Shown here in pieces: positions 4,359 through 48,645 of a DNA stretch of 64,000 nucleotides. Made by a program: the position numbers and the translations under genes. The stretch lies in NCBI GenBank assembly GCA_021824175.1, contig JAKALP010000016.1, forward strand, positions 1-64,000, written 5' to 3'. How positions within the stretch are numbered: position 1 is the stretch's first letter; each line of letters opens with the position of its first letter. Origin of the DNA: Deltaproteobacteria bacterium. GTDB taxonomy: Bacteria; Desulfobacterota; Desulfobacteria; Desulfobacterales; Desulfosarcinaceae. The notes beneath the pieces are model-generated. The model had not been told where the DNA came from, made no database searches, and saw only the letters and a list, made by a program, of their open reading frames with translations.

Positions 4359-5561
4359 ATGTTTAGCGAAACAAAGTCGGTGGCTACGATCTTTCAGCGC
4401 AAAGTGTCGCCGGTCGAAAGACTTTTTATTATGCTGGCGGAAATTGAATCGCCGTTTTGCAATCAGGTCGTACTGGAAGGAACCGGCGTGTTGAATGAAT
4501 CGCTTTGGCAAAACGCGGTCGAAGAGGCGTGTGAAGCCAATCCAGGCAGCCGGTTGATTCTTAAGGGCCGATGGATTTGGGCCAAATGGGTGGATTCGGG
4601 TATTACAGCGCCGATCCGAGTGGTCGACGGCTCGAACTGGTCCGGTTATGAATCAGATGGTGCCCCTTTTCTTTTTGACCCGTTTCCTTACAAGACCAGC
4701 CACACCAGTGAGGTGCTGCTGGTTAACGGGAGTCCACCCCGCGTAATTTTTCGTACCCTTCATGCGACTATGGATGGAGGGGGTACAGCCATGTGGGTTC
4801 TCGATATCTTTCGCGCTCTGCGCAAAGAGCCATTGGTTGGGGCGCCCTCCACCATCACCGACAAGGAATTGATGGATAGCTTAAAATGTCAGACCAGAGA
4901 TGTGTTATCCGCCAAAAGATGTCTTACCCCGACCGGCCGACCCGATGGAAAGGAGCCAGGATTTATTTGGAAGAGAACTACACTGGAGGGCAAGTTTTCA
5001 AAGCTTCTGCCGCAACTGGCTTTGGCGGTGGCCAAAGAAGCTCGCCAGCAGGGGCCGGGAGACGTCCGCGTCACGGTGCCCCTTGATCTGCGCAAGCGCG
5101 TGCCGGATATAGCCTCTACCGCCAATTTTACACGCAGGATCTATTTGGAAATACCTCCGGAAGCCACCATCGACACTCTTTCCCGGCAGTTGAAAGAAAA
5201 GCTCGATCATCTCGTTGGTGACCCTTGGCTTGGGAATCTGGCGATCTACATCCCCATGGTGTGGCTGAAGGGTTTATTCATCGCTTCAAGGGAAAAAGAT
5301 CGGGAAAGAGGATTTTACAAGGATACCGGAACAATCTCCAACTTGGGGAAGCTGCCGGTGGAATTGTTTCGAGGCGGAGGATTTGAAGCTCAAACCTGTT
5401 TTTTCATACCCCCGGAGGTGCAAGCGAAACCCTTTTTTATAACTCTCTCGGGTTACGAAAACAGGGTCGAGATGATCACCGCCATGCCCAGAGTGCTTGC
5501 AAGCAAGGGCCGATTGGACAAATTCATCGCCAATATTCTTACTGAATTGAAATCCAGCTAA
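4359..5561 (+). CDS. condensation-fold CoA-dependent acyltransferase-like protein, copy 2
   Basis: A 400-residue paralogue of the preceding gene, matching it along its whole length (shared QRKVSPVERL start, RWxWAKWVDSG, SGYExDGAxF, FRALRKEPLVG). The catalytic motif is HATMDG at about residues 131-136. A GGGGAG site just before 4353 makes the second ATG at 4359 the better start. The pair arose by tandem duplication and is probably co-transcribed. Two retained copies suggest either a heteromeric enzyme or two acceptor specificities. That is inference. Confidence 0.75.
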   Translation: MFSETKSVATIFQRKVSPVERLFIMLAEIESPFCNQVVLEGTGVLNESLWQNAVEEACEANPGSRLILKGRWIWAKWVDSGITAPIRVVDGSNWSGYESDGAPFLFDPFPYKTSHTSEVLLVNGSPPRVIFRTLHATMDGGGTAMWVLDIFRALRKEPLVGAPSTITDKELMDSLKCQTRDVLSAKRCLTPTGRPDGKEPGFIWKRTTLEGKFSKLLPQLALAVAKEARQQGPGDVRVTVPLDLRKRVPDIASTANFTRRIYLEIPPEATIDTLSRQLKEKLDHLVGDPWLGNLAIYIPMVWLKGLFIASREKDRERGFYKDTGTISNLGKLPVELFRGGGFEAQTCFFIPPEVQAKPFFITLSGYENRVEMITAMPRVLASKGRLDKFIANILTELKSS

Positions 5562-37824: not shown

Positions 37825-38026
37825 GAGTGATGGTTTCTTATTCCGGCAAACGTTCGAAATTAGGTTAAATTTTAACCAGCCACAGTCTGCTTGTTTTCAT
37901 TATCGGCATTTCAAAATTAGAATTAAATCACAAACCCGTCAATTCGTTTCATAGATCCAGCAAGAAACATGCCCATGAAAAACAACGGGTTGTAATGGAC
38001 GGACACCACTGATCGTGGTGCCCCTC

Positions 38027-38443
38027 TCACTGCGCCACAATCGGCACAATCACTACTTCCGTTGAAATCCGCGCCACGCCCCGTACTGTGGCGGCCACGG
38101 AACAATATTTTTCCTGGGAGAGCTGAACTGCTTGTTCGACGGCTTTTTGCGTCAAGTTATTGCCGCTGACCCGGTAGGTTAGATGAATGTGCTGGTAAGC
38201 CCATGGCGGATTGGCATCCTGTTCGCCATTGGCGATGACTTCCAGCATGGTAATGGGTTTGCGTTTCTTGGCCATGATATCCAAGACATCATAGGCCGTG
38301 CAGGCCGACAGCCCAATCAGCAGCATTTGGGATGGGCTGACCCCCCGCGCGGGATCATCGCCCGAGAGTACCACCGACTGGTTGCGACTGTCGGTGCCCA
38401 CAAACTGTTTAGCATTTACCCAGCGCACGGTGGTGACTGGCAT
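38027..38443 (-). CDS. OsmC/Ohr-family protein
   Basis: A 138-residue OsmC-fold protein, a thiol-dependent peroxidase family reducing organic hydroperoxides. The two conserved cysteines are present: Cys48 in SACTAYDVLDIM and Cys114 in KYCSVAATV. It follows the shorter YhfA-like branch of the family, so a peroxide role is likely but not certain. AGGAGAG lies 7 bases before the ATG. It is monocistronic. Confidence 0.88.
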   Translation of the reverse strand: MPVTTVRWVNAKQFVGTDSRNQSVVLSGDDPARGVSPSQMLLIGLSACTAYDVLDIMAKKRKPITMLEVIANGEQDANPPWAYQHIHLTYRVSGNNLTQKAVEQAVQLSQEKYCSVAATVRGVARISTEVVIVPIVAQ

Positions 38444-38926
38444 GGAAACTCTCCTAATGTTATGGTTCTAAAAGCAATCATATGTAGAAGCATGTCTTCA
38501 CTGGTATCGAACCAAGTAAGCCATAAGAATGTCAAATGTCAAAATCTAAATACCAAATGAAGGTAAAGGACCTTTCCCAAAAGCGAGACTGCCTCCACCT
38601 CACATTTGACATTCTTGCCGTTGCCTTTTGTCTATGGTTACTGCATATGGGGCGACCCCTGCCATTTGTAATTTCCCGGCCGCAACCTTTTCTTGCCTTG
38701 ACAAAGCGCGAGTTGCGGATATCCTGTTAACAATGCTGCGGTGACTTGGATGGAAGCGCATCCACCATGACATCGCGGCAATCGAAAGAAGTCGGTCCTC
38801 ACAAACAGTTCAACCCAAGGCGCAAGAAGCAAAACAGACATCGCGGGGAGCGGCTGTTTGAAGGTCGGCTGGAATGAATGGGCGCTTGTTGGAATGTCGC
38901 GCACCCCCCCACGAAGAGAAACCGCG
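38444..38926. other. intergenic stretch with inverted AATGTCAAATG repeat
   Basis: No gene. A perfect 14-base inverted repeat (AAGAATGTCAAATG at 38525-38538 and its complement at 38603-38616) encloses a partly repeated AAATGTC/AAATACC tract. It resembles the other short-unit repeat arrays of this window. Confidence 0.55.
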
Positions 38927-39784
38927 ATGACATTACTTGCCTGGTCCATTGTTCTTTTATCCGCTGGCGCAGCCGGGTGGGCACTGTACTGGTATCATGC
39001 CTGCAATCGGCAAATGATCCAGGGCCAGCATGCGTTGCGCGAGGCCAAACGTAAAATCAGCGCCCTGGAAGATGAATATCTGCAAAAGGAAACGCAATGG
39101 CAAAGCACGGAAGAAAAATTGCGAGGTTATTTGCAGCTGCTCGATGTGTTGATCAACACCATCCCCAATCCCATTTACTATAAAGATCAGGAGGGAGTCT
39201 TTCAGGGCTGCAATGCTGTCTTTGCCGAATCCATACTGGGGTTGACCCGGGATCGGATCATTGGCCGGCGCGCCCAGGAAATGACCGAGCAGATCCCACC
39301 GGATCTGGCGGCCGCCTACCTGCGCCAAGAGATGAACGCATTGCATAAAGGAAGTTCTCTCACCCATGAAGCTGCGGTTCAATGCGCGGACGGTCAGCGG
39401 CGGGATTATCTCTTCACTCTGGCGCCGATAAAGAGCCGGCAAGGCGCGGCCATTGGCAGCGTCAGTGTTCTGGCGGATTTAACCGAGAAGAACAAGGCCG
39501 CCCGAGTCCGTCTGCAGAAGGAGAAGTTGGAGGGGGTCCTGGAAACCGCGGGGGGCGTATGTCATGAGTTCAATCAGCCGCTGCAAGCCCTTTCGGGCTA
39601 TTTAGAGATCCTGGCCGTTAAAATTCAGTCGGAAAGCAGCGGCATGGCCCTGATTCAGAAAGCATTGGATCAGGTTCAGCGGATGGGGGATACCACCGCC
39701 AAACTGCAGCGGATCACCCATTACGAGACCATGGAGTATTTCGATAAATCCAAAATTATCGACATTCACAAATCATCACTTTAG
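38927..39784 (+). CDS. PAS-HisKA histidine kinase lacking the ATPase domain
   Basis: A 285-residue membrane sensor. An N-terminal helix (about 2-24), a coiled coil (about 32-70) and a PAS domain (about 72-190, NPIYYKDQEGVFQGCN) lead to a dimerisation/phosphoacceptor helix with His213 in CHEFNQPLQAL. The protein then ends at a stop, and no HATPase domain is coded in any frame up to 40146. It may be a truncated kinase or one phosphorylated in trans. No response regulator is adjacent. ATG 38927 is chosen because the hydrophobic segment follows at once. Confidence 0.8.
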   Translation: MTLLAWSIVLLSAGAAGWALYWYHACNRQMIQGQHALREAKRKISALEDEYLQKETQWQSTEEKLRGYLQLLDVLINTIPNPIYYKDQEGVFQGCNAVFAESILGLTRDRIIGRRAQEMTEQIPPDLAAAYLRQEMNALHKGSSLTHEAAVQCADGQRRDYLFTLAPIKSRQGAAIGSVSVLADLTEKNKAARVRLQKEKLEGVLETAGGVCHEFNQPLQALSGYLEILAVKIQSESSGMALIQKALDQVQRMGDTTAKLQRITHYETMEYFDKSKIIDIHKSSL

Positions 39785-40028
39785 AGAATATGATAAACAG
39801 ATCAGCAGATACCGCAGTGGTTGTAAAAAAGGAACTGGGATTTCTTCTCCAGTTGAGGTACTGACCGAGTGTTCATATTTGAATTTGAATCGATAACAGT
39901 CGGTTATTTGGTGAAAGCGCTGCTCAGAGCGTGGGGTCATGTTAAAGAGCGATAATAATAGGAACGTATAATTCCGATTGCATTTCCATCAAAATACTAT
40001 ATAACTGAAATTGAAGGATTTATTTTAG

Positions 40029-40045
40029 TGGCACAAGTTTTGTTT
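40029..40045 (+). promoter_or_regulatory. candidate sigma-54 promoter of the aminomutase cluster
   Basis: TGGCAC-AAGTT-TTGT, matching the sigma-54 -24/-12 consensus with one mismatch at the -12 C. Transcription would begin near 40055, about 90 bases before kamA. An inverted repeat AACTGG-N10-CCAGTT at 39833-39854 lies where an activator could bind. Confidence 0.45.
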
Positions 40046-40145
40046 AGCAGGCAGTCGATTATGGATGGTTTCGCCGGGTGCTTGGACAACACCAAGGCGG
40101 ACCGCCAATACAATTAACCTTCTAAATTGGAGGAGAACCACAGCG

Positions 40146-41465
40146 ATGCATTCAAACCGATGCCGCCCCATCCAGCTCAAAACAGAAGTCAAGTCCTCCT
40201 GTCCCACCGAAATCGGCGCGGAGGTAGAAGAAGAACCTCCAAGTCCGCAGGCGTGCTCCCCTGTAGCACTTCAAACGCCTGCCGAAACCCCGATTAAGGT
40301 CAAATCCCCCCGCAAGCTGATCATTCAGAGCTTGCCCCTTGAAACCCCCACCCCTCGTCGCCGCTTCAAGCAGTTTTACTATCCCGAAATCACGGACCGG
40401 CAATGGAACGACTGGCGTTGGCAAATCGCCAACCGCGTACGCTCATTGGAGCAACTGGAGCGCTTTATCCATTTGACGCCCCAGGAGCGCATGGCCGCCG
40501 AGTGTCTGCAAGGCAAGCTGCCATTGGCTATCACTCCCTACTACCTCAGCCTGCTGGTCGGCCACGGCGCGGACTATGCCTTGCGCCGCACCGTCGTACC
40601 GCTCATCGATGAGTTCATGAAGATGCCTGGGGAGGCGGACGACCCCTTGGGAGAAGAAGATCAAAGCCCGGTGCCCGGCTTGGTCCATCGCTACCCGGAC
40701 CGGGTACTGTTCTTGACCTTGGATTTTTGCTCCACCTATTGCCGTTACTGCACCCGCTCGCGGGTAGTGGGCCATGGCCGGCTGTTCTTCAACCGGCGGC
40801 GTTTGGAAAACGCCTTGGAGTATATCCGTCGAACTCCGACCATCCGCGACGTGTTGTTGTCCGGCGGCGATCCGCTCACTTTGGGAGATGCCCGTCTCGA
40901 TTGGCTATTGACCCGATTGCGGCAGATCAAACATGTGGAGATCGTGCGCATCGGCACCAAGATCCCAGCGGTATTGCCCCAGCGCATTACACCCCAACTG
41001 GTGCGCATGCTGCGCCGCCATCACCCGCTGTGGATGAGTCTGCATTTCACTCACCCCGACGAATGCACGCCGGAAGCTTACCGCGCTTGCCAACGGTTGG
41101 CCGATGCGGGTATTCCATTGGGCTCGCAAACCGTTCTTCTGAAAAGTATCAATGACTCGGTACCGGTCATGAAAGATCTGGTTCATCATCTGCTCCAGAT
41201 GCGCGTGCGGCCTTACTATCTCTACCAGTGTGATCCCATTTCCGGGTCCGCCCATTTCCGCACCTCCGTAGAAAAGGGTTTGGAGATTATCCGCGGCCTG
41301 CGCGGGCACACCACCGGTTACGCCGTGCCGACCTATGTCATCGACGCTCCTGGCGGCGGTGGCAAAATTCCGCTCATGCCCGATTACTGCCAGGGACATT
41401 GCGGAGAGAATCTGGTGCTGAAGAACTACGAAGACAAGCTATATCAATACCCCGATATCATGTAA
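40146..41465 (+). CDS. kamA: lysine 2,3-aminomutase-like radical SAM enzyme
   Basis: A 439-residue KamA-family radical SAM/PLP enzyme. The cluster motif is CSTYCRYC (Cys195, 199, 202), followed by Arg204, which in lysine aminomutase binds the substrate carboxylate. Asp363, Asp400 and the PLP lysine Lys407 (GGGGKIP) keep exactly the spacing (37 and 7) of Asp293, Asp330 and Lys337 of the clostridial enzyme, whose two Asp hold the lysine side-chain amine. So L-lysine to beta-lysine is the likely reaction. An unusual Pro-rich 75-residue N-terminal extension is present. GGAGGAG precedes ATG 40146. It heads an unusual gene cluster. Confidence 0.88.
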   Translation: MHSNRCRPIQLKTEVKSSCPTEIGAEVEEEPPSPQACSPVALQTPAETPIKVKSPRKLIIQSLPLETPTPRRRFKQFYYPEITDRQWNDWRWQIANRVRSLEQLERFIHLTPQERMAAECLQGKLPLAITPYYLSLLVGHGADYALRRTVVPLIDEFMKMPGEADDPLGEEDQSPVPGLVHRYPDRVLFLTLDFCSTYCRYCTRSRVVGHGRLFFNRRRLENALEYIRRTPTIRDVLLSGGDPLTLGDARLDWLLTRLRQIKHVEIVRIGTKIPAVLPQRITPQLVRMLRRHHPLWMSLHFTHPDECTPEAYRACQRLADAGIPLGSQTVLLKSINDSVPVMKDLVHHLLQMRVRPYYLYQCDPISGSAHFRTSVEKGLEIIRGLRGHTTGYAVPTYVIDAPGGGGKIPLMPDYCQGHCGENLVLKNYEDKLYQYPDIM

Positions 41466-41477
41466 TCGTTTCCACCG

Positions 41478-41516
41478 CGTTCCGGCCCAAAGACAATTTG
41501 GGCCGGAACGTTTTCA
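41478..41516 (+). terminator. terminator-like hairpin after kamA
   Basis: CGTTCCGGCCCAAA / TTTGGGCCGGAACG (41478-41510) with a short loop, then TTTTCATTT. It should end or attenuate transcription between kamA and the rest of the cluster. Confidence 0.75.
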
Positions 41517-41533
41517 TTTGATCACTTAAAGTG

Positions 41534-41564
41534 GCCCTCCGGCCAAGGCCGCCGGAAGGAGGGC
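41534..41564 (+). promoter_or_regulatory. hairpin sequestering the ribosome site of the YkgJ gene
   Basis: GCCCTCC (41534-41540) pairs perfectly with GGAGGGC (41558-41564), which contains the ribosome binding site of the gene starting at 41572. Inside, TCCGGC and GCCGGA offer an alternative pairing. The ribosome site is therefore closed in the default fold. Confidence 0.55.
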
Positions 41565-41571
41565 GGCTTTT

Positions 41572-42156
41572 ATGAGCGTGTCACGTACCGTTGCGGAGCA
41601 ACCTTGTGGGGCTGTGGCGTGTGCGGATGCCTCGGCTTCAATCATTAACCATAGCCGATTGTGCCAACAGTGTGCTTCCATTGGCAACACCTGCTGCCAG
41701 AAGCATGAGATCTACGTCACCTGGGGTGATTGCCGCCGCATACTGGCGTTCTACCGGAAAAAGGACTTTTATGAATATCGCGGCTGCGACAACGCCGATT
41801 ACGCCGATCAAAACGATGACCCCTTGTGGCAGCAGAATGTCTTCCGCGCCGATGGCAGCCGCCGCGTGCTCAAATGGCAAGCCAACGGCGATTGCTTCTT
41901 TTTGACGGCCGCGGGTTGCATTCTGCCGTTAGAGGCCCGGCCCTTGATTTGCCGTCTCTATCCCCATATCTTTACCGCGGCGGGAATCGCCGCGCAGTGG
42001 GATACAGAGTGCCGAGCCGCCCAAACCACGGGCACCACCGCCATCGAAGCCGACATCGCCGGTGTAGCAAATAGCGACGCTCAACGCTGGCATCAATTGC
42101 TTTACAATGAAATCCTTTGGGAAAGGTCCTCAGATGAAAATTGGCTTAACCTATGA
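41572..42156 (+). CDS. YkgJ-family cysteine-cluster protein
   Basis: A 194-residue protein of the YkgJ family, which binds zinc or an Fe-S cluster. The cysteine pattern is visible: CQQCASIGNTCCQKH (about 31-45), a Cys in TWGDCRR, CFFLTAAGC (about 103-111) and LICRLYP. Its 3' end overlaps the start of the ATP-grasp gene by 23 bases. The function is unknown. Members often accompany metal-dependent modification enzymes, so a role in maturing or assisting the KamA-like or ligase step is possible. Confidence 0.85.
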   Translation: MSVSRTVAEQPCGAVACADASASIINHSRLCQQCASIGNTCCQKHEIYVTWGDCRRILAFYRKKDFYEYRGCDNADYADQNDDPLWQQNVFRADGSRRVLKWQANGDCFFLTAAGCILPLEARPLICRLYPHIFTAAGIAAQWDTECRAAQTTGTTAIEADIAGVANSDAQRWHQLLYNEILWERSSDENWLNL

Positions 42157-43144
42157 CCTGCGCTCCGATTATCTGGCCGAAGGCTATGGCGAGATCGAAA
42201 CCGCCGAGTTTGATCGCGACGACACCATCACAGCCATCGAGGCCGCCCTGGCGGATTTGGGCTATGCCACCGACCGCATCGGGCATGGCCGGCACTTGAT
42301 CCAGCGTCTGGCCGCCGGCGATCGCTGGGATCTGGTCTTTAATATTGCCGAAGGCATGTATGGCATCGGCCGCGAAGCCCAGGTGCCAGCCATTCTGGAT
42401 CTCTACAACATTCCTTATACTTTCTCAGATCCGTTGGTGATGACGCTGACCTTGCACAAAGGCATGACCAAGCGGGTGTTGCGCGATGCGGGCGTACCCA
42501 CCTGCGAGTTCATGGTGGTGGAACGGCCTGAAGATGCCTGCCAGGTGGCGTTCAACCCACCCTATTTTATCAAGCCCGTGGCTGAAGGCACCGGCAAGGG
42601 GGTGACCCCTGACTCCATTATCCGCCGGCGCGAAGATCTGGAATCGGCCTGCCGCAAGATGATTGCGGCGTTCCGCCAGCCCGTGCTGCTGGAAGCATTT
42701 CTGCCCGGAAGAGAATTTACCGTGGCCGTGGTGGGCACCGGATTGGCCGCCGAAGTATTGGGCACCATCGAAGTGCACCTGCTGAACAACGCCGAACCCG
42801 AAGTCTACTCCTATATAAATAAGGAACAATGCGAGGAACGGGTGCGCTATCAGCTGGTGCGGCCCCAGGATGATCCGGTGGTGCGCGAGGCCGAAGCCTT
42901 GGTGCTCAAGGCCTGGCAGGTGCTGGGCTGCCGCGACGGCGGCCGGGCCGATGTGCGCTGCAACGCCCAGGGCCGGCCCCAGTTCATGGAAGTCAATCCT
43001 CTGGCTGGCCTGCATCCGGAGCATTCGGATCTGCCCATTATCTGCAACCACCTGGAAATTCCCTATCTGCGCTTGATCGAGCGCATCGTCACCTCAGCCC
43101 TGGAACGGGTCCAGTCAAAAGAAAAAACCGGAAAGAGAGTCTAA
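42134..43144 (+). CDS. D-Ala-D-Ala-ligase-like ATP-grasp protein, 1
   Basis: A 336-residue ATP-grasp ligase related to Ddl. The N-terminal domain begins MKIGLTYDLRSDYLAEGYGE, with VFNIAEGMYGIGRE (about 75-88) like the Ddl NxxxG segment. The ATP-grasp region holds YFIKPVAEGTGKGV (about 139-152) and EAFLPGREFTVAVVG. The Mg-binding end ADVRCNAQGRPQFMEVNPLAGLHPEHSDLP is intact. It should form an amide between an amino-acid carboxyl and an amine. The start is inside the YkgJ gene, with AAGG upstream, and it is one base from the next ligase. Confidence 0.88.
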   Translation: MKIGLTYDLRSDYLAEGYGEIETAEFDRDDTITAIEAALADLGYATDRIGHGRHLIQRLAAGDRWDLVFNIAEGMYGIGREAQVPAILDLYNIPYTFSDPLVMTLTLHKGMTKRVLRDAGVPTCEFMVVERPEDACQVAFNPPYFIKPVAEGTGKGVTPDSIIRRREDLESACRKMIAAFRQPVLLEAFLPGREFTVAVVGTGLAAEVLGTIEVHLLNNAEPEVYSYINKEQCEERVRYQLVRPQDDPVVREAEALVLKAWQVLGCRDGGRADVRCNAQGRPQFMEVNPLAGLHPEHSDLPIICNHLEIPYLRLIERIVTSALERVQSKEKTGKRV

Positions 43145-43145
43145 A

Positions 43146-44156
43146 ATGCGCGTTGCCGTGGTCCATAACGCCATCATCAATGCCAATTCGCCGGATGAAG
43201 AGGATGTACTGGCCCAGGCCGATGCCGTGAGCGAAGCGCTCCAGCGCCTGGGGCACACCCCTTTGCGCATGACCTGCGATCTCAACCTGGATGCGGTGCG
43301 ACAGCAGTTGAGCGCCGAGCGCCCCGACCTGGTCTTCAACCTGGTGGAATCCCTGATGGGCACCGGCCGTTTGCTGCACCTGTTTCCTTCTCTGCTCGAT
43401 GCCATGGCCCAGCCCTACGCCGGGGCCAGCGCCGAGGCCATTTTCATGACCTCCAATAAAACCGTGGCCAAGACCCGTCTCAATGCCGCCGGGCTGCCCA
43501 CGCCGGCCTGGGTGGGGCCCTGCACCGGCAGCCGTCCGGTGACTTTGCCCGACAGCCATCGCTGGCCCTCGCGCTGGATCATCAAATCGGTCTGGGAACA
43601 CGCCTCCATCGGCATCAATGAAGATTCCTTTTTAGCTGGCGTTGACACCCCCCATCTCAATGGATTGCTCTCCAAGCGCGCGCCCCAACTGGGCGGAGCC
43701 TGTTTTGCCGAAGCATTCATCGAGGGCCGTGAATTCAATCTTTCGGTGCTGGATGGTCCAGAGGGTCCCATGGTGCTGCCGCCGGCGGAGATCGTTTTCG
43801 AAGGTTTTAAAGAGGATCAGATACGCATCGTGGATTATCGCGCCAAGTGGGACCCGGCCAGCTATGAATATCATCATACCCCGCGCCGCTTTGACTTCGG
43901 CGCCGAAGATACCTATCTGCTCAGCCAGCTTGAAGCCCTGGCCTTGCAGTGCTGGGATCTCTTTGACCTGGGCGGCTACGCCCGGGTGGATTTCCGCGTG
44001 GACCCGGACAACCAGCCCTGGGTCCTGGAGATCAACGCCAACCCCTGCCTCTCCCCTGATGCTGGATTTGCCGCGGCCGTGGCCCAAGCCGGCTTGAGCT
44101 TCGACCAGGCGGTGGAGCGGATTATCGCCGCAGCGGCCGGCAGCGGCTCCCTCTGA
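43146..44156 (+). CDS. D-Ala-D-Ala-ligase-like ATP-grasp protein, 2
   Basis: A 336-residue second ATP-grasp protein, only distantly similar to the preceding one. Seen: PDLVFNLVESLMGTGRL (about 62-78), RWIIKSVWEHASIGI (about 143-157), FIEGREFNLSVLDGPEG and the terminal metal-site strand ARVDFRVDPDNQPWVLEINANPCLSPDAG. The active site appears complete. Two adjacent ligases imply two amide bonds, or one bond made by a heterodimer. It is tightly packed in the operon. Confidence 0.88.
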   Translation: MRVAVVHNAIINANSPDEEDVLAQADAVSEALQRLGHTPLRMTCDLNLDAVRQQLSAERPDLVFNLVESLMGTGRLLHLFPSLLDAMAQPYAGASAEAIFMTSNKTVAKTRLNAAGLPTPAWVGPCTGSRPVTLPDSHRWPSRWIIKSVWEHASIGINEDSFLAGVDTPHLNGLLSKRAPQLGGACFAEAFIEGREFNLSVLDGPEGPMVLPPAEIVFEGFKEDQIRIVDYRAKWDPASYEYHHTPRRFDFGAEDTYLLSQLEALALQCWDLFDLGGYARVDFRVDPDNQPWVLEINANPCLSPDAGFAAAVAQAGLSFDQAVERIIAAAAGSGSL

Positions 44157-44230
44157 AATTTGCGATCTGGTAGAAAATTAATATATTGAAAAGTTGCGAT
44201 CGGGAAATCGTAAGAAGGCGATCACCAGCC

Positions 44231-46486
44231 ATGCTCATGATCAGAAGAATTTATGATGATGTGCTGCCCGTCAATCGGGAGATCATCAAACAAGTGCAGC
44301 AGATCCTGCGCACGCGTTTCAACCACGCGCCAGAGGAAGAGATCACCCAGATCGGAGAAAAGCTGCGCAATCCTTTTAAACAGCGGTTTCGATGCACCCT
44401 GTTGGTTGCACAAAATCTGAGACGCAGGGTATTGGGCTTCGCTATGCTGTTGCATGAGCCGGAGATTGGCTTCAGCTATCTGGACTGGATCGCCCTGGCC
44501 AGTGGCCGGTCCGGTGGCGGGTTGGGTAGTGCCTTATATGATCGCGTGCGCAGCGAAGCTTCACTGCTGGGGGCTAAAGGGCTCTTTTTCGAATGTCTGC
44601 CCGATGATCCCAAAACCTGTGAGGGCGACGAGGCCATGATCAAGCAAAACCGGGATCGGCTGAGGTTTTATGAGCGCTATGGTGCAAGACCGATCAGCGG
44701 CACCGGCTATGAAACGCCCATCCAGCCTACAGACAGCTGCATGCCCCATCTGGTTTATGACGGCCTGGACCAGCTCCACCCCTTGCGACGGGAGTTCACC
44801 CGCAAAGTGGTGCGGGCCATTCTGGAGCGAAAATATGCCGACTACTGCCCGCCCCAATATGTAGACCAAGTGGTAGCCTCTATTAAGGATGACCCTGTCC
44901 AACTCAGACTCTACCGCTATGTTAAACCCGAAGCCGTGCGTTCCGCCGTGGACAGCCGTTCCATGGAGCAAATCGCATTGGTGGTCAACGAGCATCATGA
45001 TATTCACCACGTGCACGAGCGCGGTTATGTGGAAGCACCGGTTCGGATAAAGTCCATCTTGGCCGCCATCGACCCCGGCGGCCTGTTTGCCCGCAGCAAA
45101 CCGCGACCCTTTGCTGATAAATACATCACCGCAGTGCACGATACCGATCTGGTCAACTACCTGCGCCGGGCTTGCGAAGAGATGCCCGAAGGCAAATCGC
45201 TCTATCCCTATATCTTCCCCATCCGCAACAAAACCAGACCGCCCAAGGAGCCATCGGTGCTCTCGGGTTATTACTGCATCGATACCTTCACCCCCATCAA
45301 CCGCAACGCTTACCGCGCCGCTCGCAGCGGCGTGGACCGTGCTCTGACCGCGGCTTCCGAAATCCTGGCCGGCCGCCGCATTGCTTACGCCCTGGTGCGC
45401 CCCCCTGGCCACCACGCCGAGCGGCGGGCTTTTGGCGGGTTCTGCTATTTCAACAACAATGCCATCGCCGCCCAATATCTCAGCAGCCATGGTCGGGTGG
45501 CCATTCTGGACATTGACTACCACCACGGCAACGGGCAACAGGATATCTTCTACCGACGCGCCGATGTACTCACCATCTCGATCCACGGCCATCCGAAATT
45601 CGCTTACCCCTACTTTACCGGGTTTGAAGATGAACGGGGCGAAGGCGAAGGCGAGGGGTTTAACTGGAACCTGCCGCTGCCCGAGTCATTGGAGCCCAAT
45701 CAATATGCCAAGACCCTGGAGAAGGCCATTGCCCGTATCCAGGTCTTCAGACCCCAGTTCTTGGTGGTTGCGCTGGGATTGGACACCGCCAAGGGGGATC
45801 CCACCGGAACGTGGAATCTGCTTGCTAAAGATTTTGAGACCCATGGCCGCATGATCGGGGAGATGAATCTGCCCACCCTCATCGTCCAGGAGGGTGGCTA
45901 TCGCATTCGCACCCTGGGCGCCAATGCATTTGGGTTTTTCAAAGGATTGGCCGCGGCCAGCGCACGAGCCACTGAGGGTCAAAATCATGAAAAAGAGCAG
46001 ATGCACGGCCTGCACTGGCGCTATGAATTGCAGGCCGAAGATCCCGAACGCGTGCGGCGGTTGGTGGCCATCACCGGTTTTTTTAATCCCGAAGAGATCG
46101 ACATCGCCGAAGAGCTGGTAAGGGAACGCATCAGCGAGGGTGAAATCAGCGGGTACTTCTTCGTGATGGCCGAACACTATGGTCGCCTGGTGGGCTATAG
46201 CTGTTATGGCCCCATTGCCGGCAGCGCCAACAGCTTCGACCTATATTGGATCGCCGTGCATCCTGATTATCAGCGTCGCGGAATGGGCCGTCGCCTGATC
46301 AAAGAAACCGAGCGCCTGATTCATAAAGCCGGCGGCCGGCGCATCTACGTCGACACCTCCCAGCGCGCCCAATACACCAGCACCCGGCTGTTCTATGAGC
46401 GCTGCGGCTATCGGCTGGAAGCCATGCTGACCGATTTCTACGCTCCCGGCGACGGTAAGGCTATTTATTGCAAGGCAATGAAATAG
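44231..46486 (+). CDS. GNAT - acetylpolyamine-amidohydrolase/HDAC - GNAT fusion
   Basis: A 751-residue three-domain protein. The N-terminal GNAT is about 1-165 (CoA loop RSGGGLGS, 93-100). The central class II HDAC-type deacetylase is about 250-580: His394-His395 in PPGHHAE, zinc ligands Asp429 and His431 in DIDYHHGNG, Asp518 in GLDTAKGDP, catalytic Tyr557 in QEGGYR. It is closest in pattern to acetylpolyamine amidohydrolases (GYYCIDTFTP). The C-terminal GNAT is about 600-751 (QRRGMGRRL, 681-689). It joins acyl addition and acyl removal in one chain. ATG 44231 is preferred over an upstream TTG. The family role in this operon is unknown. Confidence 0.92.
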   Translation: MLMIRRIYDDVLPVNREIIKQVQQILRTRFNHAPEEEITQIGEKLRNPFKQRFRCTLLVAQNLRRRVLGFAMLLHEPEIGFSYLDWIALASGRSGGGLGSALYDRVRSEASLLGAKGLFFECLPDDPKTCEGDEAMIKQNRDRLRFYERYGARPISGTGYETPIQPTDSCMPHLVYDGLDQLHPLRREFTRKVVRAILERKYADYCPPQYVDQVVASIKDDPVQLRLYRYVKPEAVRSAVDSRSMEQIALVVNEHHDIHHVHERGYVEAPVRIKSILAAIDPGGLFARSKPRPFADKYITAVHDTDLVNYLRRACEEMPEGKSLYPYIFPIRNKTRPPKEPSVLSGYYCIDTFTPINRNAYRAARSGVDRALTAASEILAGRRIAYALVRPPGHHAERRAFGGFCYFNNNAIAAQYLSSHGRVAILDIDYHHGNGQQDIFYRRADVLTISIHGHPKFAYPYFTGFEDERGEGEGEGFNWNLPLPESLEPNQYAKTLEKAIARIQVFRPQFLVVALGLDTAKGDPTGTWNLLAKDFETHGRMIGEMNLPTLIVQEGGYRIRTLGANAFGFFKGLAAASARATEGQNHEKEQMHGLHWRYELQAEDPERVRRLVAITGFFNPEEIDIAEELVRERISEGEISGYFFVMAEHYGRLVGYSCYGPIAGSANSFDLYWIAVHPDYQRRGMGRRLIKETERLIHKAGGRRIYVDTSQRAQYTSTRLFYERCGYRLEAMLTDFYAPGDGKAIYCKAMK

Positions 46487-46782
46487 CCGTGGCCCGACAG
46501 CGTGTGTTCCGCATGTGCTCTAAATTCGGCGCTTGTTGACATCCACACCAACGATAGCCATATATTGAGACATATGAATGTCTTGAACCCATGGCGCTTT
46601 ATCCCTCTGGTTGGATCGCAAATCGAATTGACTCAGTGATTAGTTCCTGCACCGCTTTTTCCTTTTTGAGTTCCTTACCATTTTGACGAATCCCGTAGCG
46701 GCCACTGGCAGACGCCAAGATCATGTGCAGGGATGAACTACTTTCCACGTGGTGATGGAACTCATAACAAAGGGAGGCCGTA

Positions 46783-48645
46783 ATGTATCTGGCGTACTAC
46801 AACTTATCGGCCAAACCGTTTCAAATCGACTCAGATCCCCGCTTCCTTTGGCTGGGCAGCGATCACAAGGAAGCCTTGGCCAACCTTCGTTACGGGCTCT
46901 TGGAAAGCAGTGGCTATGTGGTCTTGGTCGGTCCCGTGGGCACGGGCAAAACCACGCTGGTCAATGCCTTGCTGCAAATGCTGGATGAACGGGTCCTCGT
47001 GGCCAATGTCAATTATCCCAGTCTAGACAGCACGGATTTTCTCTCCTTTGTGGCCAGGCTTTATGATTCCTCTGCGCCGGCCGCCGGCAAGGCCGATTGT
47101 TTGCTGTTTTTAAAAGCCTTTATGGAACGCATCCGCGCCCAAGGAAAGGTGGCCTTGCTGGTGATTGATGAAGCCCATCGTCTGTCCGAAGAACTACTGG
47201 AAGAGATCCGGTTATTGTCCAACATGGAAAAAGACGGGGAAAAGCTGATCCGCATCTTCTTTGTCGGTCAAACCGAACTGAAAAGCCATCTGCTATCGTC
47301 CCATTGTCGCGCCCTGCGTCAGCGTGTGACTCTCTTCTATCATCTCCAGCCGCTTTCGGAAGAAGACACGAGCAATTACATCGACCACCGTCTGCGCGTG
47401 GCCGGCGGCCAGGCCCAGATCTTCAGCCCGCGGGCCATCCGCGCCATTTATAAATATTCGCGGGGCAATCCGCGCCTCATCAACAAAATTTGTGATCGGG
47501 CTCTGTTGACCGGTTACGTGAAAGAGCAACCGACGATCCAATCCGCAACGATTCTCGAAAGCGTCCGAGAATTAAGCCAGATCGATCCGATTCCCACCAG
47601 AAGACCATTGAATCCGTGGCTGCGGATGTCCGCGCCCCCATGGTGGCGCCGCATCGGCTGGCGCGAGGCCCTGTTAAAACCGCGAAGTCAAATTGCGGGC
47701 CGTATCAAGCGGGTGGTCACTGTCACATCAGCTAAGGCCGTGGCCATCCGATCGGCAGCTCAGGAAAAGGTATCCGAGTTCTTCGGGATCATCCGACGGT
47801 CGATGCGCCCCCATGGATGGTCGTTCATCGCCATCAGCGCATTGGCTGCCTTGGTGTGGATCGGGGGCCTGTGGTTGCAAAACCTCCATCATTGGCAGGA
47901 TGATCCTGCAGGGAGACGGTTACCCGCCGAGAATCCCGAATCACTCGCGCAGGAAGAATATATGCCGGCCAGCTTGATCTCCGAAACCCCCAAACCATCC
48001 GCCCAAGGATCTGATCAAGTTACAGCCAAACCCGCCGCGGCACCCAAACCCGCACCGCCCTCGACGCGCGACTTGGCGGCTGCGATGCTGGTAAAGAACG
48101 ATTTCCAATCAGCCATTCAATTGATCGAATCCAATCATGGGCGCAGCGCTGGAAGCAATCCCGAGCTCGACCACCTGTATGCCAAAGCCTTGACCGGTCG
48201 GGCCGCCCAGCTGATGACCCAATCCCCGACCGACGCCGAGACGATGCTGCGCAAAGCTGTTTCAGCCGATCCCAGCTATGTTGAAGCGCCAGTGGCTTTG
48301 GGAAATTACTACACCAAGATCAAGGAGTATGCCCGGGCCATTGGGTATTACCAAACAGCCCTGCAACTTGATCCCCACAGAACTGAAGTACTTTTCAATC
48401 TCGGATTTATCTTTGCTACCACCGGCATGTATGTGGCCGCGGAAGAGACGCTGGAGAAGTTGGTACAGCTGAAGCCGGATTTTGTGGATAAAGCCCTTTT
48501 CAACCTGGCCGTGGTGCAGCAAAAACTGGGCAAGCCCCAGGAAAGCGTGGCATCCCTGGAAGAAGCAGTGACCCTCCGGCCGGAAAACGATCAGGCTCAG
48601 GCATTTCTCAAGGAGCTTAGAGCCAGCCAACAGGAGCACCGATGA
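46783..48645 (+). CDS. ExeA-like AAA ATPase with membrane helix and TPR tail
   Basis: A 620-residue protein. The N-terminal AAA domain starts YYNLSAKPFQIDSDPRFLWLG, typical of ExeA/MshM. Walker A is GPVGTGKTT (50-58) and Walker B VALLVIDEAH (about 123-132). A membrane helix (about 343-365) divides it from a periplasmic Pro/Ala linker and about four TPR motifs (about 430-615). Such proteins help assemble secretins or type IV pili through the peptidoglycan. The LysM lipoprotein gene overlaps its stop (ATGA), which supports a cell-wall-related role. GGGAGG precedes the ATG. Confidence 0.9.
   Translation: MYLAYYNLSAKPFQIDSDPRFLWLGSDHKEALANLRYGLLESSGYVVLVGPVGTGKTTLVNALLQMLDERVLVANVNYPSLDSTDFLSFVARLYDSSAPAAGKADCLLFLKAFMERIRAQGKVALLVIDEAHRLSEELLEEIRLLSNMEKDGEKLIRIFFVGQTELKSHLLSSHCRALRQRVTLFYHLQPLSEEDTSNYIDHRLRVAGGQAQIFSPRAIRAIYKYSRGNPRLINKICDRALLTGYVKEQPTIQSATILESVRELSQIDPIPTRRPLNPWLRMSAPPWWRRIGWREALLKPRSQIAGRIKRVVTVTSAKAVAIRSAAQEKVSEFFGIIRRSMRPHGWSFIAISALAALVWIGGLWLQNLHHWQDDPAGRRLPAENPESLAQEEYMPASLISETPKPSAQGSDQVTAKPAAAPKPAPPSTRDLAAAMLVKNDFQSAIQLIESNHGRSAGSNPELDHLYAKALTGRAAQLMTQSPTDAETMLRKAVSADPSYVEAPVALGNYYTKIKEYARAIGYYQTALQLDPHRTEVLFNLGFIFATTGMYVAAEETLEKLVQLKPDFVDKALFNLAVVQQKLGKPQESVASLEEAVTLRPENDQAQAFLKELRASQQEHR

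Follow-up and report, generated by a model that had tools for sequence, protein, structure and literature searches.

We describe a set of four enzyme families that probably constitutes a compact pathway, common to several phyla, in which lysine is turned into beta-lysine, joined to other molecules and capped with acetyl groups. It was found in a window of 64,000 nucleotides, the whole stretch of DNA analysed here (positions 1 to 64,000 of contig JAKALP010000016.1, from a member of the Desulfosarcinaceae), and comprises a radical SAM aminomutase of the KamA family, two diverged ATP-grasp ligases with the fold of D-alanine--D-alanine ligase (Ddl), referred to as G1 and G2, and a C-terminal GNAT acetyltransferase domain, which in the window is part of a larger protein that also carries an HDAC domain. 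No description of this gene set was found in the open-licence PMC literature, a search outside which most subscription papers lie. A 2009 study in which Iyer, Aravind and colleagues dealt with the gene neighbourhoods of ATP-grasp amidoligases might mention parts of the cassette.

A conserved unit of four families

A search of 395 genomes of the window's phylum with a G2 profile gave matches at E ≤1e-30 in 146 genomes and close matches (E ≤1e-100, counted by hand) in 65. The loci examined were 40 from these matches, then 20 more, together with named loci and their genomes; the taxa sampled include Desulfobacterales, Bacteroidota, Planctomycetota, Spirochaetales and Myxococcota, mostly as draft or metagenome-assembled genomes. 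Genes were called mechanically (longest open reading frames, ORFs, with profile matches preferred), and we set the thresholds for the locus counts. Duplicate, short or off-target loci were dropped before counting (L001-L008, L024-L026, L028, L040, L042, L065-L094, L149-L151, L172-L180 and L190-L195). An adjacent G1-G2 pair is present in 91 of the remaining 134 loci; the other 43 were left out, many having been fetched for the GNAT-HDAC module alone and the rest being lone paralogues, genes that are broken or set apart, or contigs cut short.

Among the 91 loci with a G1-G2 pair, 79 contain the GNAT, 69 KamA, 64 both and 31 an HDAC domain. On these counts the core consists of KamA, G1, G2 and the C-terminal GNAT, with a YkgJ-like protein and the GNAT-HDAC module as extras. 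The initial annotation of this DNA had taken five genes, including YkgJ, as the unit and expected them to recur together; the families do co-occur across several phyla, but YkgJ (14 of 91 loci) and GNAT-HDAC are optional, and the unit is thus the smaller one. All four core families occur together in Desulfobacterales, in Bacteroidota (L049, L062, L135, L139, L145 and L146) and in one member of the Phycisphaerae (L045); a Spirochaetales cassette (L138) is interrupted by two genes, and a Myxococcota locus (L141) has no KamA beside its ligases. Gene order varies, with KamA first in the window and in the Bacteroidota loci L135, L139, L145 and L146, and last in L181, L182, L186 and L187. Fusion partners of the GNAT are HDAC (22 of the 91 loci), G2 (seven) and a ureohydrolase domain (one); elsewhere it stands alone. 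That the unit keeps recurring while gene order changes and various fusions arise gives good grounds for assuming a single undescribed pathway, and the gene neighbourhoods make it very probable that the four families work as one functional unit. The notion that they are bystander genes was rejected on the co-occurrence of the families across loci and genomes. KamA, G1 and G2 are found together in cultured species (Desulfosarcina widdelii, Desulfosarcina cetonica and Desulfatitalea alkaliphila), so that a direct search for the product is feasible. One genome (G301) has two KamA-G1-G2-GNAT cassettes (L114 and L130) about 1 million bases apart, with a GNAT-HDAC gene at a third place.

Organisation of the cassette in the window

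As initially annotated, five genes lie on the same (+) strand between positions 40146 and 46486. Domains were assigned with Pfam and NCBIfam.

40146-41465, + strand: KamA, KamA-family radical SAM aminomutase, predicted lysine 2,3-aminomutase (TIGR00238, TIGR03820, alignment with 2a5h)
41477-41511, + strand: terminator-like hairpin (15 pairs, 9 of them G-C; consensus scan)
41572-42156, + strand: YkgJ-like CxxCxxCC protein, optional member (PF03692, 22.4 bits)
42134-43144, + strand: G1, ATP-grasp ligase with D-Ala-D-Ala-ligase fold (PF07478, 79.2 bits; AlphaFold model)
43146-44156, + strand: G2, second diverged ATP-grasp ligase, fold as G1 (PF07478, 64.9 bits; AlphaFold model)
44231-46486, + strand: three-part protein with a weakly GNAT-like N-terminal part, HDAC and C-terminal GNAT (Pfam and PDB matches)
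45029-45928, + strand: HDAC domain, acetylpolyamine-amidohydrolase type, residues 282-581 (PF00850, 256.8 bits)
46004-46483, + strand: C-terminal GNAT domain, the fourth core family (2r7h match, E 1.3e-39)

The G1 start overlaps the end of the YkgJ-like gene by 23 bases, and a purine-rich stretch lies 5' of every start among the five genes. KamA begins at the ATG at 40146, which is residue 28 of ORF P0001; for the three-part protein an alternative TTG start at 44186 is possible, and the aligned homologues begin at about 44231. The hairpin separates KamA from the other four genes and has the longest stem of the nine terminator-like sites in the region, a number to be read against a mean of 7.9 in shuffled sequence. 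With so long a hairpin after KamA the five genes may not share one transcript, and its position directly after KamA hints that expression of this gene may differ in level from that of the genes that follow. Rfam gave no riboswitch or other RNA at gathering scores over 38000-48000. Upstream of the cassette, a frame at 38858-39784, recognised by eye as sensor-kinase-like, seems to end early.

KamA as a predicted lysine 2,3-aminomutase

KamA scores 342.1 bits with TIGR00238 (cut-off 199.2) and matches lysine 2,3-aminomutase (LAM; 2a5h) at E 7e-136 in phmmer, its Pfam LAM_C match being limited to positions 1-55 of 127. LAM is marked by the radical SAM motif CxxxCxxC, the pyridoxal phosphate-binding lysine in PGGGGK and two aspartates for the epsilon-amine. 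By alignment, all of these are present in the window's enzyme. Asp 363, Asp 400 and Lys 407, numbered from the ATG at 40146, have the LAM spacing that the initial annotation had noted, with intervals of 37 and 7 residues. Their counterparts in the alignment with 2a5h lie in YQCD, VVD and PGGGGK, and we take them to be D293, D330 and K337. The annotation had read beta-lysine as the product from these residues. They do support a basic substrate, but they are near-universal in aligned KamAs and so do not single out the cassette enzyme: the triad is kept in all 99 KamA rows of one alignment (which includes duplicate loci, partial ORFs and the reference itself) and in 69 of the 71 rows of the tree alignment, with 16 of the 18 non-cassette rows among them. 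Models for glutamate and arginine aminomutases and EpmB score lower than the LAM model, all below their cut-offs. Glutamate 2,3-aminomutase was considered and rejected, given that the Asp/Asp pair favours a basic substrate and that TIGR04368 gives 419.1 bits against a cut-off of 650. L-lysine is the likely substrate of KamA.

A KamA scoring above 355 bits, a line chosen after the scores were seen, is encoded in all 42 chosen cassette genomes and in none of nine chosen controls (best control 338 bits). In 13 of the 42 the ligases lie away from KamA, yet a KamA above this line is encoded elsewhere in the genome. The KamA tree was built from 71 of 103 rows, about half of the main-type cassette rows having been thinned out and the window's KamA being entered twice; in it, the eight unlinked KamAs that were fetched and 32 of 33 main-type cassette KamAs form one clade (support 98/97), in which the eight group with L162, whose KamA adjoins its ligases (100/99). 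The remaining 13 cassette KamAs belong to different clades. As several KamA lineages thus accompany the same ligases, the KamA product looks like a common need. A second KamA homologue (L204, G000:C20:105727-106647) is encoded on the window's contig, about 64 kb downstream of the cassette KamA, and falls elsewhere in the tree.

Ligases with an altered second-substrate loop

G1 and G2 share with Ddl the fold and the ATP/Mg residues, and differ from it in falling below the cut-offs, in a changed second-substrate loop and in being additional to the Ddl of the genome. With the Ddl model TIGR01205 (cut-off 245.65) they score 113.9 and 87.6 bits, respectively, whereas a separate Ddl encoded in the same genome reaches 308.2 bits. 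The AlphaFold model of G1 (17-sequence alignment; predicted local distance difference test, pLDDT, 90.3) matches DdlB (8evz_A) with Z 32.4 and a root mean square deviation of 2.6 over 294, and that of G2 (15-sequence alignment; pLDDT 86.0) matches DdlA (8evv_A) with Z 31.9 and 2.7 over 299. The loop comparison covered 40 of 101 G1 ORFs and 40 of 91 G2 ORFs, duplicates included. In all 40 rows of each ligase the Arg, Asp, Glu and Asn aligned with the catalytic motif of Ddl are kept; in the loop that in Ddl presumably holds the second D-Ala, Ser-Leu is replaced by Ser-Asp in G1 (40/40), and the Gly after Pro by Cys in G2 (40/40). The loop change points to a second substrate that would differ from D-Ala and perhaps bear an amine. 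Neither PylC nor other small-molecule ligases appeared among the 50 structural matches listed per ligase, which excludes nothing.

The three-part protein and the nested GNAT-HDAC module

The last protein of the cassette had been described as an acyltransferase/deacetylase fusion, and its HDAC domain and clear C-terminal GNAT agree with that; it has, however, three parts, the N-terminal one being weakly GNAT-like. The C-terminal GNAT (about 160 residues) is closest to 2r7h, a 'putative D-alanine N-acetyltransferase' (E 1.3e-39). The N-terminal 200 or so residues have PDB matches at E 0.29-0.36 and no Pfam match. The HDAC domain has as its closest PDB entries two acetylpolyamine amidohydrolases (9gkz, E 2.1e-73; 6phr, E 9.2e-73), and its HH, D-x-H, D and Y positions, which we take to be catalytic, do not vary in any of 13 homologues. 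Its predicted function is of the acetylpolyamine-amidohydrolase type; unlike in those enzymes, a conserved stretch of 200 residues precedes the domain and a GNAT often follows it. HDAC and GNAT form one chain in 22 of the 91 loci, at least eight of them from the window's own genus, and several closely related to the window. In the main text of PMC11532494 the terms 'bifunctional' and 'acetyltransferase domain' do not occur.

The N-terminal part together with HDAC occurs in 37 of the 395 genomes, and all 37 are among the 146 with G2 (hypergeometric 3.9e-18 by genome and 2.2e-14 by genus, kinship being ignored). The module lies beside the ligases in 15 genomes; in 22 it is elsewhere, either on a different contig or at a distance above 12 kb; the match and the split were read by eye from listings. 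All 21 genomes of named loci, 18 of them picked because their locus showed GNAT-HDAC without ligases, encode G2, in 20 cases at E 7e-85 or better and in G429 at 3.9e-55. As G2 is encoded in every one of these genomes with GNAT-HDAC, also where the two lie apart, the module probably acts on the product of the pathway. It is an accessory that may be absent or distant.

In Desulfosarcina cetonica (L048, 4415-6878) the three-part protein is spread over two overlapping frames, through a frame break or a sequencing error. A second, distinct HDAC-family gene, about 28% identical over part of its length, adjoins the GNAT-HDAC-GNAT gene on the opposite strand in L010 (5354-6361), L012 (3583-4632) and L015. 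The YkgJ-like protein, with a PF03692 score slightly below the cut-off of 23 bits, carries a domain annotated in Pfam as putative zinc- or iron-chelating and is an optional member.

Neighbouring genes and the polyamine association

Neighbouring ORFs were clustered for 91 loci, which are not those of the G1-G2 count and do not include later-added ones, and the 45 largest clusters were viewed. YkgJ appeared in 11 loci; by eye, two clusters were kinase- or regulator-like (10 and 8 loci) and one ABC-ATPase-like (9 loci), with scattered distances. An apparent frame of 24,479 residues at G047 in the G2 search was discarded; it borders on sequence read as N, which makes up 7001 of the 17001 bases retrieved there.

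An association with polyamine genes, absent from the initial annotation, was also seen. Twelve of the 91 loci, representing six families of one phylum, have a pyruvoyl arginine decarboxylase beside the ligases, ten of them together with an agmatinase-family gene; the three neighbouring genes examined in this respect are deoxyhypusine-synthase homologues. In L133 (10600-12090), a cassette of the KamA type, a GNAT and an agmatinase/arginase-family (ureohydrolase) domain share one frame. Arginine decarboxylase is encoded in 13 of 13 polyamine-type genomes, which were chosen for it in part. Full replacement of KamA by the polyamine genes was considered and rejected, since these 13 genomes have KamA elsewhere. 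Between the arginine decarboxylase and G1 of L161, a gene at 4634-5557 weakly matches the RimK-like ATP-grasp family (22.7 bits, cut-off 21).

The decarboxylase and agmatinase adjacency, the L133 fusion and the type of the HDAC domain make a diamine a reasonable acceptor. Beta-lysine itself contains the 1,4-diamine of putrescine with an additional carboxymethyl arm. That a polyamine is present in the product is nevertheless doubtful, and still more tentative is the idea of a widespread, unnamed class of bacterial metabolites in several phyla, beta-lysine-polyamine conjugates that would be made by paired Ddl-type ligases, switched by acetylation and deacetylation, and serve as polyamine analogue or stress solute.

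Discussion

Based on the families of the four enzymes, from which their reaction types are predicted, we propose the following cytosolic pathway, in which (i) KamA would convert L-lysine to L-beta-lysine; (ii) the two ligases, acting one after the other, would turn carboxylates into acyl phosphates and make two amide bonds, at least one of which would involve beta-lysine as a building block; (iii) the C-terminal GNAT would N-acetylate an amine, be it in the product or in an intermediate that G2 helps to make; (iv) where present, GNAT-HDAC would deacetylate the product and, as the HDAC domain would strip acetyl groups, the compound could be made and taken back. The product would most likely be an amide of beta-lysine that is N-acetylated, perhaps has a putrescine-type amine as acceptor, and stays inside the cell as a solute or polyamine-like effector. 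Acceptor, product and physiological role are conjecture at this stage, as is the suggestion in the initial annotation that the amine may be protected and deprotected through acetylation, and we give the full statement of this four-enzyme pathway a roughly even chance of holding.

Several results weigh against this interpretation. KamA falls below the curated cut-off of the LAM model TIGR03820 (481 against 525.4 bits), and the 355-bit line is passed as well by the KamA partners of AblB in three genomes (G198, 402; G344, 393.8; G299, 359.7 bits). The sample is weighted towards Desulfobacterota and towards draft or metagenome-assembled genomes, and the KamA controls number nine. There is no KamA nearby in 22 of the 91 loci and no GNAT in 12; some of these are cut by contig ends, but L115, which is not, lacks both. 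In L140 (G415) and L014 (G009), no G1 was detected beside KamA, G2 and GNAT. In the phylum of the Cyclobacteriaceae genome G432, a G2 relative is encoded in 53 of 296 genomes (E ≤1e-50), the close, window-type G2 in G432 alone, the other 52 matches being more distant; nine loci from seven of those other genomes comprise four-gene operons with KamA last (four) and single ligase paralogues (five). As to polyamines, the ureohydrolase-GNAT fusion is a sole case from one draft genome, and the adjacency of arginine decarboxylase was seen within our sample in one phylum only and may reflect shared ancestry or chance synteny. Arginine decarboxylase is also not enriched in genomes with KamA-type cassettes (16 of 29, against 5 of 9 controls), and for this reason the beta-lysine-polyamine conjugate was weighted down.

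Four alternatives to the proposed amide-forming pathway were considered. In the first, the cassette would make the osmolyte N-epsilon-acetyl-beta-lysine, with the C-terminal GNAT replacing AblB and the ligases as bystanders. KamA plus GNAT is the combination of AblA and AblB, in which a KamA-type lysine 2,3-aminomutase is followed by a GNAT, and the literature, in the portion covered here, includes papers on this osmolyte. The cassette differs from AblA/AblB in its GNAT family, its two extra ligases and its KamA copy, and the two systems coexist in G299, G198 and G344. The AblB model TIGR03827 matches neither the three-part protein (at E 0.001) nor anything in the window's genome; AblB exceeds its cut-off in 3 of 51 genomes, in all three with a second KamA as neighbour and not the cassette KamA, and these AblB-partner KamAs form a separate group in the tree (weak support, 90/39). 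Together with the G2-GNAT fusions (7 of 91 loci), which link the GNAT to a ligase, these results make the osmolyte improbable.

Unlikely to a similar degree is polyamine metabolism proper, in which G1, G2, GNAT and GNAT-HDAC would acylate, acetylate and deacetylate polyamines, and KamA would be a loosely linked neighbour. Such a role would fit the genes for arginine decarboxylase, agmatinase and homologues of deoxyhypusine synthase that adjoin G1-G2 in part of the phylum, the nearness of the HDAC domain to acetylpolyamine amidohydrolases and the L133 fusion. Set against it are the presence of KamA in all 42 chosen cassette genomes, its adjacency in 69 of 91 loci and its several lineages, as well as the lack of enrichment of arginine decarboxylase described above.

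In a third alternative, the ligases would attach beta-lysine to a protein, elongation factor P (EF-P) or another, or to the cell wall, with reversible acetylation as a switch. EpmB and EpmA also use beta-lysine as a building block, deoxyhypusine synthase, which is linked to another modification in the EF-P/eIF5A family, has homologues adjoining some cassettes, and the ligases share the Ddl fold of cell-wall synthesis. However, the cassette KamA scores 238.6 bits with the EpmB model TIGR03821 (cut-off 369.3), and its ligases are ATP-grasp enzymes, whereas EpmA is a paralogue of aminoacyl-tRNA synthetases; ligases of this fold usually join small molecules, the genome has its own Ddl, and no cell-wall or EF-P family was recognised by eye in the 45 largest neighbour clusters. 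We consider this modification improbable too. The initial proposal of a probable beta-lysine pathway with two amide-forming ligases, apart from AblA/AblB and from EF-P beta-lysylation, is supported by the analysis, the co-occurrence of the families across several phyla included.

Finally, a secreted specialised metabolite with beta-lysine, such as an antibiotic or metallophore, has a poor chance of being the product: beta-lysine occurs in such peptides, YkgJ is annotated as putatively metal-chelating, and the ABC-ATPase-like gene is within 1 kb and on the cassette strand in L021, L022 and L027, but it is 1.8-7 kb away in the other six of its nine loci, YkgJ is optional, and no nonribosomal peptide synthetase or polyketide synthase was recognised by eye in the 45 largest clusters.

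Two further systems resemble the proposed beta-lysine pathway. In pyrrolysine synthesis (PylB/PylC/PylD) a radical SAM lysine mutase feeds an ATP-grasp ligase; the cassette differs in having two ligases and a GNAT, and PylB is not among the seven NCBIfam families matched by KamA, nor PylC among the 16 matched by G2; for G1 the listing covers 25 of 36 families. Ngg/AsnO, which makes N-acetylglutaminylglutamine amide, an N-acetylated dipeptide amide, has a fused acetyltransferase and ATP-grasp ligase, as in the G2-GNAT fusions here, but uses other amino acids and another gene set, and Pfam and NCBIfam found no amidotransferase in the five proteins of the window.

If the proposed pathway is correct, it would represent a further use of beta-lysine besides the AblB osmolyte, EF-P modification and the antibiotics from which we know it, and it would give a family of bacterial HDAC proteins a role in the metabolism of a small molecule.

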